Below are positions 37,284 through 59,870 of a stretch of 64,000 nt of DNA, one piece after another. The notes beneath the pieces are model-generated. The model worked only from the letters and a program-made list of their open reading frames with translations. It had not been told where the DNA came from and searched no databases. Both the position numbers and the translations under genes were made by a program. Source of the stretch: Gigantopelta aegis. Its lineage: Eukaryota; Mollusca; Gastropoda; Neomphalida; Peltospiridae. How positions within the stretch are numbered: the stretch's first letter is position 1; every line of letters starts with the position of its first letter. Location: the NCBI RefSeq assembly GCF_016097555.1, contig NC_054701.1:59737676-59801675 (forward strand), given 5' to 3'.

Positions 37284-38315
37284 GGTCTAAAATATTCAGG
37301 ATCAAATAATTTTAAAAACTGATTTATGTGTATATATAGTACTTTGTATTCTAGAACTAATGTAGCCTAATCATTGTTAACCAGCCAAAAAGAAGAGAAA
37401 ATGTTTTTTAGACTTCTTCCCTACATCCGATATTAAAATTTCCACTTCAGTGGAACATTAGTTTCCCTTACGGGGCCTCTTTGTCGGTGGTTCGGACACT
37501 TGCATAGTATCCATTTTGGGAAGTCGGCTGTACCGAGATGACGTTTAGAGGGAATTTCATTGATGACGTCACCGAGAAATACCCCATCTTTTCTATCTCC
37601 ACTTAATGAGAGTTCCCATTTTTGTTTACGATAAATATCGTAAAACATTGAGTGACTCACTAAGAGAACTTTACGAAACCTTCGAAAATCTGTCGTATCT
37701 TAAATCTACGACATTCGTATTTTGCTCGTAAGTAGCTACGATATGTCGTAGCTAAGATGGCTTCGAAAATACGGGCCCTGTTGTTGGCAAATATATGTTC
37801 CTCCAACATGATCGTAGAGAGCTAGACGGACATTTGGAGATAAATACGCTCATTACAGTCGGACCAAGCTATGTATTTTTTTGGCAATTCCCGACAACCA
37901 AAAAGTTGGCAAAGATTTCCGCTCTAATACCACAACAATCATGTTTGACGTCAAATACCTTTACATCGATCATTTTCGAGTTAACTGATTTTAAAAAATC
38001 CACATATTAATCACTAATACACATACTACAGAAAGAAATCCGACATCACCCACATTCAGCTACGCTTCGTGACACTCCGTTGCAAGAATTATAAAGCTCG
38101 GTGATCTATTTCGTCACGTGATCGCCCACTGGGCGATTCCGCCTTGTGCAACAGTTACAGGGGCTGCAACAGTTACAGGGGTCGTCTCATACCAAGCGAC
38201 GTTACAACATGGAAGAGTTGGCTAATGCTTTCCTCTCCAACACAGTGATAAAATTACCAAATATTTGACATCCAATAGCCGATGATTAATGAATCAATGT
38301 GCTGTAGTGGTGTCG

Positions 38316-38620
38316 TATGGCCGATGCGGGCACGGCACAAAATTACTTCATCCTTCCTGCACCGCGTGTACGATGACTGCCATTGTCCCAGGACTGGCTG
38401 CACAGAATGAAGCTTGTTCGCAACAGAACCGTCCCAATCATATTGGCAAGTCGAAAAGATATAGGCCTATTGGTTCATATATTTAAACTCACCGTAGGGG
38501 ACACCAACACAGACATGGGGCAAATTCAAAGCTGACTTGGCTGCAAAATCTGTCTTTTCGTTGTCTTTAATGCAAACAAAATATAACATCTTTATTGGAG
38601 TTAAAATGAAAGGGTGCCAA
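38316..38620 (-). mobile_element. LINE fragment (minus), RNase H end
   Basis: The minus frame reads DNEKTDFAAKSALNLPHVCV and GVPYGEFK, a diverged copy of the RNase H end seen at 23300-23400. Preceded by a SINE 3' scrap (about 38258-38312, TTTGACATCCAATAGCCGAT). Confidence 0.75.
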
Positions 38621-38804
38621 ATACAAAATAAGTTGGAAAATAGGGAAGAAGTCCAACACATTCAAGGCATCGCACATGTGTTTGAAAGAGAAGCGTATGT
38701 CTTTCTATTTACGTATATAGGCCTATATATCAGCCACCTGTCCACAACGGCCATTTTTCCTAGGTGCCCTGAGTGACCAATATATTCAGGTTCGAGTGTG
38801 TGTG

Positions 38805-38838
<34 letters not shown>

Positions 38839-38841
38839 GGG

Positions 38842-38959
38842 AATAACTGGTTACTGTCTTAAGATATCGGCTTTATCCTGCGAAGGTTAGAATGGCGAGG
38901 CATTCACCATTCGTCCTGAGCAGGATAAAGCCGATATCTTAAGACAGTAACCAGTTATT
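38842..38959. repeat. Perfect 40 bp inverted repeat with 38 bp loop
   Basis: Arms 38842-38881 and 38920-38959 are exact reverse complements, starting AATAACTGGTTACTGTCTTA. The arm ends in TTTATCCTGC, and TTTTATCCTGC appears once more just right of the second arm (38963). A TA microsatellite (about 38812-38835) lies to the left, and the Penelope-type tail to the right. Confidence 0.95.
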
Positions 38960-39339
38960 TCTTTTATCCTGCAATCCTACAGGGATATTCGGAAAATCGT
39001 TATTTATTCCAGCTTTGTGTACGCAAATCGAGTATTGGCAACCTAGCAAGGCTTTTGCCGTATGACGTCATGTAAGATACATGACGTCATTATTTGTAAG
39101 ACACTAGCTACATTCTGTCACATTAAAAAAGCGTTTCTAAATTCTAATTCATAAATACATATACAAGTTTTGTATTGTTATCGCAAAACTAAAAGTTATT
39201 TGTATTTACTGTACTTCAACGAATGATTTAAAGAATATGTTTATTGAAAATCTACTCTGAAATACTCGAGTGGAGTCCGGCTTATGTCACGTGACCTATA
39301 TTTTTGGTATACAGTGATTGCTGGATAAATATATATACC

Positions 39340-39399
39340 GTTACATCTTTTGTTACAACTTAAAGTTTCACGCTATGAGCGATCATCAGGTAACGTAAC
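39340..39399 (-). ncRNA. Hammerhead ribozyme, type I, minimal stem III
   Basis: On the minus strand: GUUACGUUAC (39399-39390), CUGAUGA (39389-39383), stem II CGC/GCG around UCAUA (39381-39371), GAAAC (39369-39365), loop UUUAA, GUU (39359-39357), then GUAAC (39356-39352). Stem I pairs GUUAC with GUAAC, and a second GUUAC/GUAAC pair (39344-39340) extends it across a 7 nt bulge. Predicted cleavage follows the U at 39357. All core residues are present; the base pair next to the core in stem II is a U-U mismatch. Hammerheads with very short stem III are known from Penelope-like elements, matching the GIY-YIG fragment just upstream. Confidence 0.85.
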
Positions 39400-39872
39400 T
39401 GTCCTGTTATTACGTCATGAAGCAGTGACGTCACAACAGGCTATTCCTTTTCGGCTTAGCTTTGGTGGCTGTGTTAATCCATGTGGGTGGGTGTCAGCAT
39501 TTGGATACAAGTTCATTTCTCTTGTTTAGCTACTTGGTCCCTATAACTTCCAGTTTTTCCTCAAGGCATAGATTGCACTGCCCCGTGCTTCTCTTTAAGT
39601 TGTTTACTTTCCTTATTACGTGCCACGTTATTGTGTACTCGGCGTTTTTTCTTTTTAGTTCCCAAATGTATTTCGACAGCTCTGTTTCCTTTTCGTATTT
39701 GCTGTGCATGAAGGACTTCTTGTGGTTGGCATACCTTTCTTTGAAGGATCCTCCTGTGAGACCTATGTATGTCTTGCTTGATGTGTTAGTGGTATGTACT
39801 GCAGCTTCATATATAACTGATTTAGTGAGGCAGTTTCCCTCAAGTGGGCAATCGTCCTTATTTCTGCAGTTG
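39400..39872 (-). mobile_element. Penelope-like element 3' part: GIY-YIG endonuclease, degraded
   Basis: Minus-strand frame (about 39860-39470) reads CPLEGNCLTKSVIYEAAV, KTYIGLTGGSFKERYANHKK and YIWELKRKNAEYTITW, then CNLCLEEK. This is the zinc-linker plus GIY-YIG nuclease at the C terminus of Penelope-like reverse transcriptases. The nuclease nicks DNA for target-primed insertion. The reverse-transcriptase part is absent: the element is 5'-truncated at about 39872 next to TTAGGG repeats. The hammerhead lies about 70 bp downstream, in the expected 3' region. The copy is broken. Confidence 0.85.
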
Positions 39873-39890
39873 GGTTAGGGTTAGGGTTAG
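39872..39890 (+). repeat. Short interstitial TTAGGG tract
   Basis: GGGTTAGGGTTAGGGTTAG, about three telomeric units, lies exactly at the 5' truncation point of the Penelope-like element. Confidence 0.9.
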
Positions 39891-40012
39891 AACAAAAGTG
39901 AAAATATGATGGATGCAAATATTTTGAGTCCGCATCCAAATACACCTCCAAAAGTGTTTTTGTTTTCAGAATGTCATCACAAGTACTGTTGACAGTAAAA
40001 CTATAAAACATA

Positions 40013-43000
40013 TCAGAGTGTTAATTTATCCTTTAACCACTTGACACCATTGAGTAGTCCCTTGTTAACAACAACACTGGAATCTTTACCTGTTAATAAA
40101 AGAAAATACAGTTGAATGTTAGGCGGTCTGATTAAAGTCTGGTATCGCTTCCACGTCCGATTTAGTCACTGTTAATTTATCTGGCACAAGCCAGTGTTAT
40201 TTCGTGCCCTCCCCGTTTTACGACAAGATCTTAGCGCTAAGATCACCTTGATAAAATTTTTTTTTTTGAAAAAGACGGTTAAATTGATGTTTTAACAATT
40301 ATGTTGGTATCTAACTGCCACTCTCGTGGTATTCTCTATTTAGACACCGCAATAATCGGAGCTGCGATATTTCCCTGATACGGAGGTCTGTTATCTGCAG
40401 TCGCGTACCGCCTTTCCGAATACGTCGTGTTTAGTGTTTTGACAGGTCGATTGAAAGGTCATCAGGACACACGGCAGCCTTGATTTTAGTTAAAGCTACT
40501 GATGAACACCTATGGTAAAGTCGAAGTGATCAGTAAGATCGTATTTCATTTACTAGTAATATTAAAGGGACATTCTTGAGTTTGGTGCAATTTTAAAATG
40601 TTACTGACCAAGAAAGACTTTTTAACGATTGTAATTACATATCAAATATATTTTTCTGCATAAAATATTACTGGCTGTATATTAAACGCGTTTCTCATCG
40701 TTCTGATATTTGTAGTAGGTTAACTTTCATTTATTTCCTAATTTTTTTTGTTTTACAAAATCCAGTTTGGGCTTCTTACAAATATTAATACCACCAGAAA
40801 CACATTGATTATACACACTGATATTCTAAATAAGAAAATATATTTAATATGTAAGTTTAATCGTAGAAATATTTTATTAGTTGGAAACATCTTATAATAC
40901 AGCAAACTCAGGAATGTCCCTCTAATAGTTTCTTATACACCCACATAGGAGGGCAAACGTTGTAGATCATTTTGGTCTCCAACATACTTGGAAATTACAT
41001 TTCAGACATACCTGGTTGCTCTACGGTGATCACCCGGTCGCCACAGCCAGGCCATCCAATAAAATAAGAACGGCCGAAATTGATGACTCTGTGACGTATA
41101 AGTTTTATCTGATACTGATTGCTTTATGATGCAACCTAATGGAAATATTTTTCCGGAATTTTCTGATATTTTCATAGTATGTGTGCAAACGATCTTTTCA
41201 TTTAAAGTGCGCAAAAACGTCATTTTCATAAAAGTAATTTTAAACAGTGAAAAATGTCATGTTTGACATATTTGCAAAATGACGACACAAATGAGTATAT
41301 CATTATTTATAAGTGAATTGGAAAACTTCCTCATAAAAAGACACACACACCAAAAAATCATCAACAAGTTCATAGAAAAAAACCCCATACACTTTATTAG
41401 CAAAAATTCCGGATATTTGATAGGAATTCTGGAATTCCGAGTATGTGATGAAAATTCCGGAAAGCTGGTCGGCCTGATGATGCATAAGTTAAACTGCACG
41501 CATGTTTGCCGTAATAGTCCAGGAACATTAGGGTTTAATCCGGAAATAAATAGTACATAGCTGATTTCCGGGTTAAACACTAATTTTGACCTAATGTTCC
41601 TGGACTATAAATAACTTTTAGTTGAAAAAGATGTTTAAATTTATTTGAAACCTGGTTTTTTTTTTCTTCAGGATATGTATATAAGAAATAGAATACTACA
41701 CCACAGCATAATGCAAATCCCCAATCGAACACTGTATTGGGTGTACACTACCAAATCAAATCCCATAGACGACAATAGTAACATGTGGCTAAAACTCCCA
41801 CCTGCAGGCTATCAATCGACATAAATGCCACGGATATAAATACTACCACCCCTCACCCTTAAAGTGAATCAGAAAAAAATGGGGGTCAAGCTGCTCATTT
41901 CTGAGATAATGGGTAGTGTCTATGACTACCCTAGGTCCGCACAAAATTCGAGTACTTTTTTTTTCTACAGGTACCTCATACATGTTTCAAGCACAAGGCA
42001 CAGTGGTACTAGATGAAATAAAATTTCAGTAATAGATAATTAACGATATAAGTTACATAATAATTATATGATCATGCGCTAGTTTCGCTTTTTAAACTGG
42101 CCGTTTGTCCGTCACAACACTGCACGTGTCAACCGATTTTTAAATGCAATACAATGGCATGATTTGGCATCCCATGTTCAGCGCTGGAATTAAGATGCAT
42201 AATGCTATTTTAATGCTATTTTACTTTATTCCTTAATCTCATCATCATCTGGTTTAAGTGTCGGGTACTCTGGTCCGGGTCGAGTTAGTCCAATATTTTG
42301 GACTCGTGGAGGCCCTACCCACTACCTACAAAATAGCAATAATTTTTATTTCAATGAATTAAAAACATTTAAGCGGAACCTGTGGTGATTTTCAGAGCAG
42401 ACCTACGGTATCTTGCAAACTGACTTACCATCTGTGGTTGTTTGTTGACTCTGGGATAAAGAATGGAAGATTCTATGTTCTTCGATCTCATCCTCACTCT
42501 GAAAAGGACAAAATTGTAGTTAGGGGGCTAATAGAGCCACGGCCCCCTCCCTTCTGATGTATCATGTTTCAGAATTCATATGCGATCATCTACGATTTAA
42601 AAACCTACCAGTCATAGGCGTACGGGCTCCCATTTTTGTAGGGGAGTGGGGGCGGGGCAGGCCGATTTTTGCCGGAATTCAACGAAAATTCTCGAATCTG
42701 TATAACAACATTTATTTGTATTAGTAATACCGCTAAACTGCTAAATAAGGTTGTGAACGAATCGCTACACATTTTTATATGAATTACAACCAATATTGTG
42801 GGTAAACTGATGGAAATATATGATGAAAATGGTTCAGAAGAGCTAATTTTGCCATTTGCTCATTTTTATGATATTGTTTTTACGGTTGCTGCCCCCCCCC
42901 ATACGCTTATTCTACCAGTGACAAGCTGTTCTAGCTGGACTCTCTATAAGTAGGCTACAGGCTTTTCTGTATAAACATTAAAACACAGAGAAACTGAAGT

Positions 43001-57396: not shown

Positions 57397-57521
57397 TCCG
57401 AGTATGCAATGATTCCCACAGTAATACAACACATTAGTTATTAATTCATTCACTGCAGGGAGAAACCCGACAGCACCCCCTTTAACAATGTTTCTGATCA
57501 GTACAGAGACTACATGGTTAA

Positions 57522-59672
57522 TGGAGTACTATTGCTCTTCTACTTGGACGGTATCTATTGCTCTTCTACTTGGACGGTATCTATTGCTCTTCTACTTGGA
57601 CGGTATCTATTGCTCTTCTACTTGGACGGTATCTATTGCTCTTCTACTTGGACGGTATCTATTGCTCTTCTACTTGGACGGTATCTATTGCTCTTCTACT
57701 TGGACGGTATCTATTGCTCTTCTACTTGGATGGTATCTATTTCTCTTCTACTTGGATGGTATCTATTTCTCTTCTACTTGGATGGTATCCATTGCTCTTC
57801 TGCTTGGATGGTATCTATTTTTCTCTACTTGGATGGTATCTATTGCTCTACTACGTGAATGGTATCTATTGCTCTTCTACTTGGATGGTATCTATTTCTC
57901 TTCTACTTGGATGGTATCTATTGCTCTTCTACTTGGATGGTATCTATTTCTCTTCTACTTGGATGGTATCCATTGCTCTTCTGCTTGGATGGTATCTATT
58001 TTTCTCTACTTGGATGGTATCTATTGCTCTTCTACTTGGATGGTATCTGTTGCTCTTCTACTTGGATGGTATCTGTTTATCTTCTACTTGGATGGTATCT
58101 ATTTATCTTCTACTTGGATGGTATCTATTGTTCTTCTACTTGAATGGTATTTGCTGCTCTTCTACTTGGATGGTATGTATTGCTCTTCTACTTGGATGGT
58201 ATCTATTGTTCTTCTACTTGGATGGTATCTGTTTCTCTTCTACTTGTATGGTATCTATTGCTCTTCTACTTGGATGGTATCTATTGCTCTTCTACTTGGA
58301 CGGTATCTATTGCTCTTCTACTTGGACGGTATCTATTGCTCTTCTACTTGGATGGTATTTGTTGCTCTTCTACTTGGACGGTATCTATTGCTCTTCTACT
58401 TGGATGGTATCTACTGCTCTTCTGCTTGGATTTTATCTATTGCTCTTCTACTTGGATTTTACCTATTGCTATTCTACTTGTATGGTACCTACTGCTCTTC
58501 TACTTTTATGGTATCTATTGCTCTTCTACTTGGATGGTATCTATTGCTCTTCTACTTGGATGGTATCTATTTTTCTCTACTTGAACGGTATCTATTGCTC
58601 TTCTACTTGAACGGTATCTATTGCTCTTCTACTTGGACGGTATCTATTGCTCTTTTACTTGGACGGTATCTATTGCTCTTCTACTTGGATGGTATCTATT
58701 TTTCTCTACTTGGACGGTATCTATTGCTCTTCTACTTGGACGGTATCTATTGCTCTTCTACTTGGACGGTATCTATTGCTCTTCTACTTGGACGGTATCT
58801 ATTGCTCTTCTACTTGGACGGTATCTATTGCTCTTCTACTTGGACGGTATCTATTGCTCTTCTACTTGGACGGTATCTATTGCTCTTCTACTTGGACGGT
58901 ATCTATTGCTCTTCTACTTGGATGGTATCTATTGCTCTTTTACTTGAACGGTATCTATTGCTCTTCTACTTGGACGGTATCTATTGCTCTACTACTTGAA
59001 TGGTATCTATTGCTCTTCTACTTGGATGGTATCTATTGCTCTTTTACTTGAACGGTATCTATTGCTCTTCTACTTGGACGGTATCTATTGCTCTTCTACT
59101 TGGATGGTATCTATTGCTCTTTTACTTGAACGGTATCTATTGCTCTTCTACTTGGACGGTATCTATTGCTCTTCTACTTGGATGGTATCTATTGCTCTTC
59201 TACTTGGATGGTATCTATTGCTCTTTTACTTGAATGGTATCTATTGCTCTTCTACTTGGACGGTATCTATTGCTCTTTTACTTGAACGGTATCTATTGCT
59301 CTTCTACTTGGACGGTATCTACTGCTCTACTACTTGGACAGTATCTATTGCTCTTCTACTTGGATGGTATCTATTGCTCTTCTACTTGGATGGTATCTAT
59401 TGCTCTTTTACTTGAACGGTATCTATTGCTCTTTTACTTGGACGGTATCTATTGCTCTTCTACTTGGATGGTATCTATTGCTCTTTTACTTGAATGGTAT
59501 CTATTGCTCTTCTACTTGGACGGTATCTACTGCTCTACTACTTGGACGGTATCTACTGCTCTACTACTTGGACAGTATCTATTGCTCTTCTACTTGGATG
59601 GTATCTATTGTTCTTCTACTTGGATTTTACCTATTGCTATTCTACTTGTATGGTACCTATTGCTCTTCTGCT
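57522..59672. repeat. 26 bp minisatellite, about 80 units
   Basis: Unit TATCTATTGCTCTTCTACTT plus GGACGG, with variants GGATGG, GAACGG, GAATGG, a TTTCT variant and shorter TTTTTCTCT units. 26 is not a multiple of three and the unit has no stop in any plus frame, so all three frames stay open for long stretches; the longest is 503 codons (57488-58999), reading YLLLFYLDG, IYCSSTWT and SIALLLGR in turn. Variant blocks cluster: GACGG first, GATGG in the middle, mixed with GAACGG at the end, which points to local amplification. No evidence it is translated. Confidence 0.97.
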
Positions 59673-59870
59673 GTTTTGTACCCAGCAATGACATCTCTAA
59701 CAGTTTTACAGACAGCCTGACCACTTGGGAAATTTGACCATTCATTGGGACATTGTTGCACAGAAAGCTTCACACAGGCACAGGCTGTGGACTTGTCTAT
59801 TCCAAACAAGTTACCCATGGTGCTCTATTCTATTGTTGTAGCTAACAAATAAGACAGCCACTGCAACTCA
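59660..59870 (-). mobile_element. Harbinger (HARBI1-like) transposase fragment
   Basis: The minus frame reads ATTIE, a stop, then STMGNLFGIDKSTACACV and KLSVQQCPNEWSNFPSGQ, the N-terminal helix-turn-helix region of PIF/Harbinger transposases. The rest is absent: on the C-terminal side the frame runs directly into the 26 bp minisatellite. A different family from the copies at 16288 and 60445. Confidence 0.65.

Follow-up and report, generated by a model that had tools for sequence, protein, structure and literature searches.

Penelope-like elements (PLEs) reportedly carry minimal type I hammerhead ribozymes, a subject on which Cervera and De la Pena are said to have published in 2014. Minimal PLE hammerheads of type I are described in the relevant sections of PMC6155905, and Cervera and De la Pena (2014) is cited in PMC11167929. 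According to PMC7229834, the animal hammerheads of classical type I reside for the most part in retrozymes. The RNAs of these retrozymes measure about 170–400 nt. The locus described here, located in a window of 64,000 nucleotides (the whole stretch of DNA that we have analyzed), holds a ribozyme of an already known kind, placed where such ribozymes are known to lie, within an element copy that is probably dead; it adds members and does not make a new class. It resembles the known minimal PLE hammerheads in its pseudo-LTR position, its very short stem III and the attached reverse transcriptase-endonuclease (RT-EN) ORF. However, the family to which it belongs (family A; the letters A–E are labels coined in this analysis) has a U-U at 10.1/11.1 instead of a pair, and the window copy is 5′-truncated, with a loss of 2 nt in stem I. 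As far as the Anolis PLE PAc is presented in the sections of PMC11167929 used here, it is similar in having a pLTR-ORF-pLTR organization (pLTR, pseudo-LTR), a hammerhead in the pLTR and A + T-rich insertion sites, whereas its cut site lies 26 bp inside the ORF and here the similarity to RT begins some 170–200 nt past the hammerhead (loci L100 and L142). The locus is of interest chiefly because it led to a comparison of families and to the recognition of two classes of insertion ends.

Structure of the hammerhead

Read on the minus strand from 39399 to 39340, the RNA has the form of a minimal type I hammerhead of the PLE type (39340..39399), recognized by its sequence, by a covariance model and by a descriptor. 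The 5′ strand of stem I (39390..39399), with covariation between families, is a repeated GUUAC, the outer half at 39399–39395 and the inner one at 39394–39390. The core CUGAUGA (C3–A9, 39383..39389) comes next and is identical in 45/45 aligned copies, an invariance to be read in the light of these copies having been chosen by similarity. It is followed by stem-loop II, U-CGC-UCAUA-GCG-U (39370..39382), where the strands CGC (39381–39379) and GCG (39373–39371) pair and U39382 stands opposite U39370, so that the stem begins with a U-U mismatch (10.1/11.1), which takes the place of the standard pair in all 45 copies. The core GAA (G12–A14, 39367..39369) is conserved as G12 in 43/45, A13 in 45/45 and A14 in 44/45 copies. 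Stem-loop III, ACUUUAAGU (39358..39366), consists of AC, UUUAA and GU, i.e., 2–3 bp (AC/GU), and is quasi-palindromic, with 8/9 positions paired in a self-dimer. The U at 39357 is H17, with the predicted cut 3′ of this base. Hammerheads require a residue other than G at this position, and among the 45 copies it is U in 31, A in 14 and G in none. The 3′ strand of stem I (39340..39356) is formed by the inner GUAAC (39356–39352), a 7-nt bulge, AAAAGAU, and the outer GUAAC (39344–39340). Both the window sequence and the aligned copies thus contain the CUGANGA and GAA cores, A15.1-U16.1 and H17 of a type I hammerhead. The residue counts come from a gap-free comparison of 45 of 51 alignment rows, six rows with <50 aligned bases having been dropped; the MAFFT alignments A2, A3 and A5, with some rows out of place, did not enter the counts, nor did A1.

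The preliminary description of this DNA had already read the core residues in order on the minus strand, the GUUAC/GUAAC pairs of stem I, the CGC/GCG stem II, a very short stem III and a cut after the U at 39357. All of these are present at the bases given there, although the U-U mismatch and the bulge went unmentioned.

The PLE fragment and its endonuclease

On the 5′ side of the hammerhead, and in the same orientation, lies a PLE endonuclease. This is a GIY-YIG-type remnant (39533..39871, minus strand) recognized by homology, with a Cys-rich motif at its start and 113 codons before a stop, and its frame is interrupted by stops. The whole PLE fragment (39325..39872, minus strand) includes the end of the endonuclease, the 3′ UTR, the hammerhead and a GGTATATATATTTAT end, as delimited by homology to L114, L105 and L092; nucleotide homology to these and other fuller copies indicates that it is 5′-truncated at 39872. 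The endonuclease is 53% identical to that of L053, a contig from outside the host described below, and of five aligned endonucleases a single one, other than that of the window, matched the Pfam GIY-YIG family (E 0.0042). Pfam searches with the window endonuclease, the L053 frames and the family B ORF retrieved neither RT nor GIY-YIG, and a PDB sequence search with the latter gave no match at E up to 0.01; an alignment-free structure prediction of the endonuclease (mean pLDDT 50.5) was set aside. The assignment of the window endonuclease to PLEs and the GIY-YIG type holds by homology, and the hammerhead adjoins the GIY-YIG EN/RT ORF of a PLE. The nuclease just 5′ of the ribozyme and the known Penelope layout, both proposed in the preliminary description, are in this way borne out, the latter also by the same-strand endonuclease found upstream in 17/37 loci of the host and by the similar arrangement of families B–E. 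We consider it very probable that the locus is a 548-bp, 5′-truncated and degenerate copy of a family A PLE that carries the pseudo-LTR hammerhead of its family, located after EN and, in a fuller relative, also before RT. Judged by its sequence, the motif is a genuine hammerhead of type I, and it belongs to the 3′ region of a PLE.

Outside the host, a protein search for PLE endonucleases in viral contigs gave nothing that could be confirmed, and a DNA pattern of the endonuclease matched two loci in these contigs that were not PLE-like. The same pattern matched three loci in genome contigs, of which one, L053 (JAAEPJ010000379.1), is a PLE. Titled as a bacterial MAG, this contig contains two head-to-head PLE copies with RT-like and endonuclease frames, probably as eukaryotic contamination. 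Its RT-like stretch is recognized by a motif, and its PLE assignment is based on the endonuclease homology and on motifs known from the literature. The 5′ part of a hammerhead, CUGACGAGUGCGUAAGCACGAAAC, is found 124 nt past the endonuclease stop codon and reaches the contig end; the ribozyme runs off there, and stems I and III lie beyond reach.

The PLE in the window breaks off on its 5′ side precisely where a run of TTAGGGTTAGGGTTAG (39873–39903) is found. The sibling locus L097 (2043–2349), about 45 kb away in a duplication 90.6–92.7% identical to the window region, has about 307 nt at that break and no TTAGGGTTAGGGTTAG-type run in the stretch read. The appearance is that of a deletion repaired with telomeric repeats, a type of event described for mammals in PMC2246262.

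Relatives and PLE families in the host genome

A search of the host genome (1.149 Gb, 5216 contigs) with the 60-mer gave at least 45 scored matches, including the window site, a number that is a lower bound as 40 of the 114 candidates were scored. We fetched 37 stretches to cover the other matches, and by tblastn (E up to 1e-3) 17 of them had a PLE endonuclease 5′ of the hammerhead and in the same orientation. The hammerhead was accompanied by both RT-like sequence and EN in L092, L105, L114 and L115 (weak RT match in the last), while in L100 a hammerhead is located upstream of RT-like sequence. L170, a longer stretch over the L100 place, has RT and EN parts 89–95% identical to L105 (in L100, about 81% over a shorter piece), and its RT + EN are flanked by two minus-strand family A hammerheads, one at 2298 and the other at 293, about 2 kb apart. 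Hammerheads on both sides, in the manner of pseudo-LTRs, are thus found in the family (L170, and B and C in tandem) and not in the truncated window copy. Four loci (L085, L086, L090 and L118) contain paired family A hammerheads, which lie head to head on opposite strands with 9 to 86 nt between them, one of the L118 pair being partial; no EN or RT match was found in the 3.1–3.3 kb fetched around them.

With the window endonuclease as query, 150 matches were scored among 891 candidates, and they fell into groups near 90, 60, and 47% identity. In 20 further endonuclease loci the hammerhead was found by pattern in 12 and by the covariance model described below in five more (L148, L158–L161); neither retrieved one in L149, L150 or L157, of which L149 and L157 diverge beyond the endonuclease and L150 is devoid of the hammerhead core. 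In this way a single genome was seen to contain at least five families of PLEs that share the hammerhead core and differ in a covarying stem I, with the U-U in three of the five. Stem I is GUUAC/GUAAC in family A (the window), ACUCAU/AUGAGU in B (L142), UCUACAU/AUGUAGA in C (L143), GCUAU/AUAGC in D (L146) and GCUGU/ACAGC in E (L154), while positions 10.1-11.1 are U-U in A, D and E, A-U in B and G-C in C, which also has a longer stem II. The hammerhead of families B–E is at the same place as in A, and stem III pairs as a self-dimer at 8/9 positions in A, B, D and E and at 8/10 in C. Families B and C form tandem arrays of about 2.39–2.40 kb. We read family C as a recent expansion, given that its EN (L143 and others) is 100% identical to the query at 44 of 150 scored places and given its tandem arrays of about 2.4 kb. 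In family A, L096 has two hammerheads 2.1 kb apart with like flanks, and these flanks suggest a larger duplication and not a family A tandem array.

Covariance model and covariation

The covariance-model check proposed in the preliminary description gave opposite answers with curated and with purpose-built models. The Rfam hammerheads gave no match (E up to 1 across the window, E up to 10 across 351 local bases). This miss says little, since the same library at gathering was also silent on 15 viral contigs selected by a hammerhead pattern (8 U-U and 7 G-C; three of the U-U controls, L044, L045 and L049, have weak stems). The viral locus L031 gave no hammerhead at gathering, and the top Rfam hammerhead score of L040 was 15.2, compared to a threshold of 48.5. 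A plain reading of raw sequence can find a hammerhead that is missed by the Rfam library. On the other hand, a model built from families B, D and E only (six sequences, family A excluded) ranked the window site first, at 39351–39395, with 33.7 bits and an E-value of 5e-7 (these E-values are rough), the runner-up scoring 15.3 bits. Applied to 22 further loci, this model recovered the supplied family A sites (24.8–40.2 bits) and gave 19.9 bits to L031 and weak scores of 16.4 and 13.5 to L053 and L040; at E up to 1 it missed family C (L143, L144, L151 and L152) and the viral L058 and L064. It also found both hammerheads of L170 (39.0 and 26.4 bits).

Covariation was measured over nine sequences, six from A and one each from B, D and E; family C was omitted because its longer stem II misaligned. 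In this alignment 99.0% of the cells were paired and 6/11 pairs had changed on both sides: double changes between families were found in 5/5 pairs of stem I and 1/3 of stem II, while the 3/3 pairs of stem III were invariant and thus uninformative. None of 500 shuffles attained the observed covariation score, and sliding the partner by 1–3 columns lowered the pairing to 21–49%. The number of further pair types, a second measure, was not unusual (204/500 shuffles). Three helices open at stem I are obtained with support from covariation, stem III being invariant.

The U-U mismatch and viral hammerheads

The U-U at the base of stem II might be taken as a sign of decay, a reading that we rejected as it is found in 45/45 copies, in families D and E, in 21/43 viral matches and in print. 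The window shares this mismatch with the hammerheads of Perreault (2011; PMC3088659), where U10.1-U11.1 is presented, in the portion concerned with it, as natural, tolerated and more active than other mispairs. Since it is reported there as a natural variant, we have not treated the standard 10.1-11.1 pair as defining, and since it is published already the mismatch is not new.

A search of IMG/VR with the pattern CTGATGA-N-CGC...GCG-N-GAAAC gave 43 matches at 42 loci, with U-U in 21, G-C in 10 and other combinations in 12. The distinct sequences that passed a loose test of the two other stems were 15 U-U, 8 G-C, 2 A-U and 1 A-A, although several of these look weak (L061, L071, L044, L045, L049, and L056 with L076). 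The U-U hammerheads of IMG/VR differ from that of the window in being located on viral contigs and, for most of the stem-supported ones, in having a much longer stem III. Nine of them (L031, L032, L034, L036, L038, L039, L043, L047 and L048) are type III hammerheads with U-U that lie, by eye, shortly before a likely start codon. Another viral-contig pattern, CTGATGA...GAAACTTTAAGT, matched 29 loci that were judged by eye, without a stem test, to be chance matches.

Condition of the window copy and alternative explanations

In most family A relatives the 5′ strand of stem I is GUUACAC-GUUAC and the 3′ strand GUAAC-AAAAG-GUGUAAC, and the window differs by a loss of 2 nt and one substitution. The alternative register offered by the duplicated GUUAC is, given these relatives, a product of decay specific to this copy. 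It had been pointed out in the preliminary description as possibly relevant to folding, and it does matter for the predicted fold: the minimum of the window copy is the shifted register, at −8.1 kcal/mol, whereas the hammerhead has −4.1, or −4.8 when stem III is left out, energies that concern secondary structure and ignore tertiary contacts. The inner half of stem I has a probability of about 0.02 in the window compared to 0.44–0.45 in L092, where the outer half reaches 0.85–0.89, and the minimum of L092 is also a non-hammerhead fold (−10.4, vs. −8.1 for the hammerhead with stem III and −9.7 without). Since stem II starts from a U-U and stem I lacks 2 nt, with the misregister as predicted minimum, "well-formed" was too strong a term. 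We infer that as an element the window copy is dead, and that it makes a poor ribozyme, because it stands alone without reverse transcriptase, its endonuclease contains stops and the two lost bases of stem I favor the misregister.

Could A + T-rich DNA have matched the hammerhead consensus here by chance? Rfam is silent on the window and the folding energy of the monomer equals that of shuffled sequences (z 0.00). Random matches do occur: the descriptor (core, stem II of ≥3 bp, stem III of ≥2 bp with A15.1-U16.1, stem I of ≥4 bp), which in the 64-kb window retrieved the 39340–39399 site as its single match, was matched 60 times in 3632 dinucleotide-preserving shuffles. This amounts to 0.017 matches per shuffled window, and three matches in all the shuffles were equal or stronger in all three stems. 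Five PLE families, moreover, have the motif in the same position, and the covariation of the stems and the match by a model derived from other families already refute a chance origin, the probability of which we put at practically nil.

The hammerhead might also belong to a metazoan retrozyme, i.e., a small non-autonomous repeat with a type I hammerhead, instead of to a PLE. Retrozymes are where most classical animal type I hammerheads are found (PMC7229834, in the part cited above), 20 of the 37 fetched loci have no same-strand endonuclease upstream and some have the close head-to-head pairs. Nevertheless, the window copy is directly 3′ of an endonuclease, EN is joined to the hammerhead in the other 17 loci, and where short hammerhead repeats devoid of an ORF would mark a retrozyme, positions 37500–41500 contain no such array, all of which makes this origin highly improbable. 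A third explanation is that the window hammerhead has been kept for a host function such as the processing of a host transcript, as its core is intact in spite of the stops in the endonuclease. However, CUGAUGA is common to all the aligned copies, so that common origin suffices for the intact core; stem I is damaged, and no host gene containing the motif appears in the ORF lists. We regard a host function as exceedingly improbable, and we retain the reading as a degenerate family A PLE copy with its pseudo-LTR hammerhead.

Insertion ends and a possible mechanism

An intact family A RNA would self-cleave after U17 or A17, probably best as a dimer; this form is favored because stem III has just 2–3 bp but is quasi-palindromic, and because one hammerhead per pseudo-LTR gives two per transcript. 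The quasi-palindromic stem III of families A–E would suit a dimeric form as in newts and axolotl, where such a form is described in the sections on these animals of PMC6155905 and PMC7229834. Transcripts from pairs of pseudo-LTRs or from tandem PLE copies would hold several hammerheads and would be cut down to unit length by cleavage after position 17. For one PLE studied in PMC11167929, the relevant section reports that the hammerhead did not cleave unless protein was added and that ribozyme mutants had no effect on in vitro insertion.

The family A hammerhead is located directly 5′ of a UAUAUAU stretch where many insertions end. Among the 45 aligned copies, 16 pass from GGTATATAT straight into (AT)n, 17 have a tail of about 80 nt (some of them are not ends, as L100 continues into RT) and 12 show neither. 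Both classes are seen in L170, where the hammerhead before RT leads into the tail and the one after EN into (AT)n. A speculative mechanism, which we consider unlikely, is that cut (AT)n target DNA anneals to the RNA immediately downstream of the ribozyme and primes reverse transcription there, with the folding or cleavage of the hammerhead picking between the two starts.

Two other repeats were observed in the window. Positions 38842–38959 form an inverted repeat able to fold as a hairpin, with 45-nt arms 96% complementary and 28 nt between them, and 57425–59740 is a long array in which self-matches step by about 26 nt and open frames are found in several phases.
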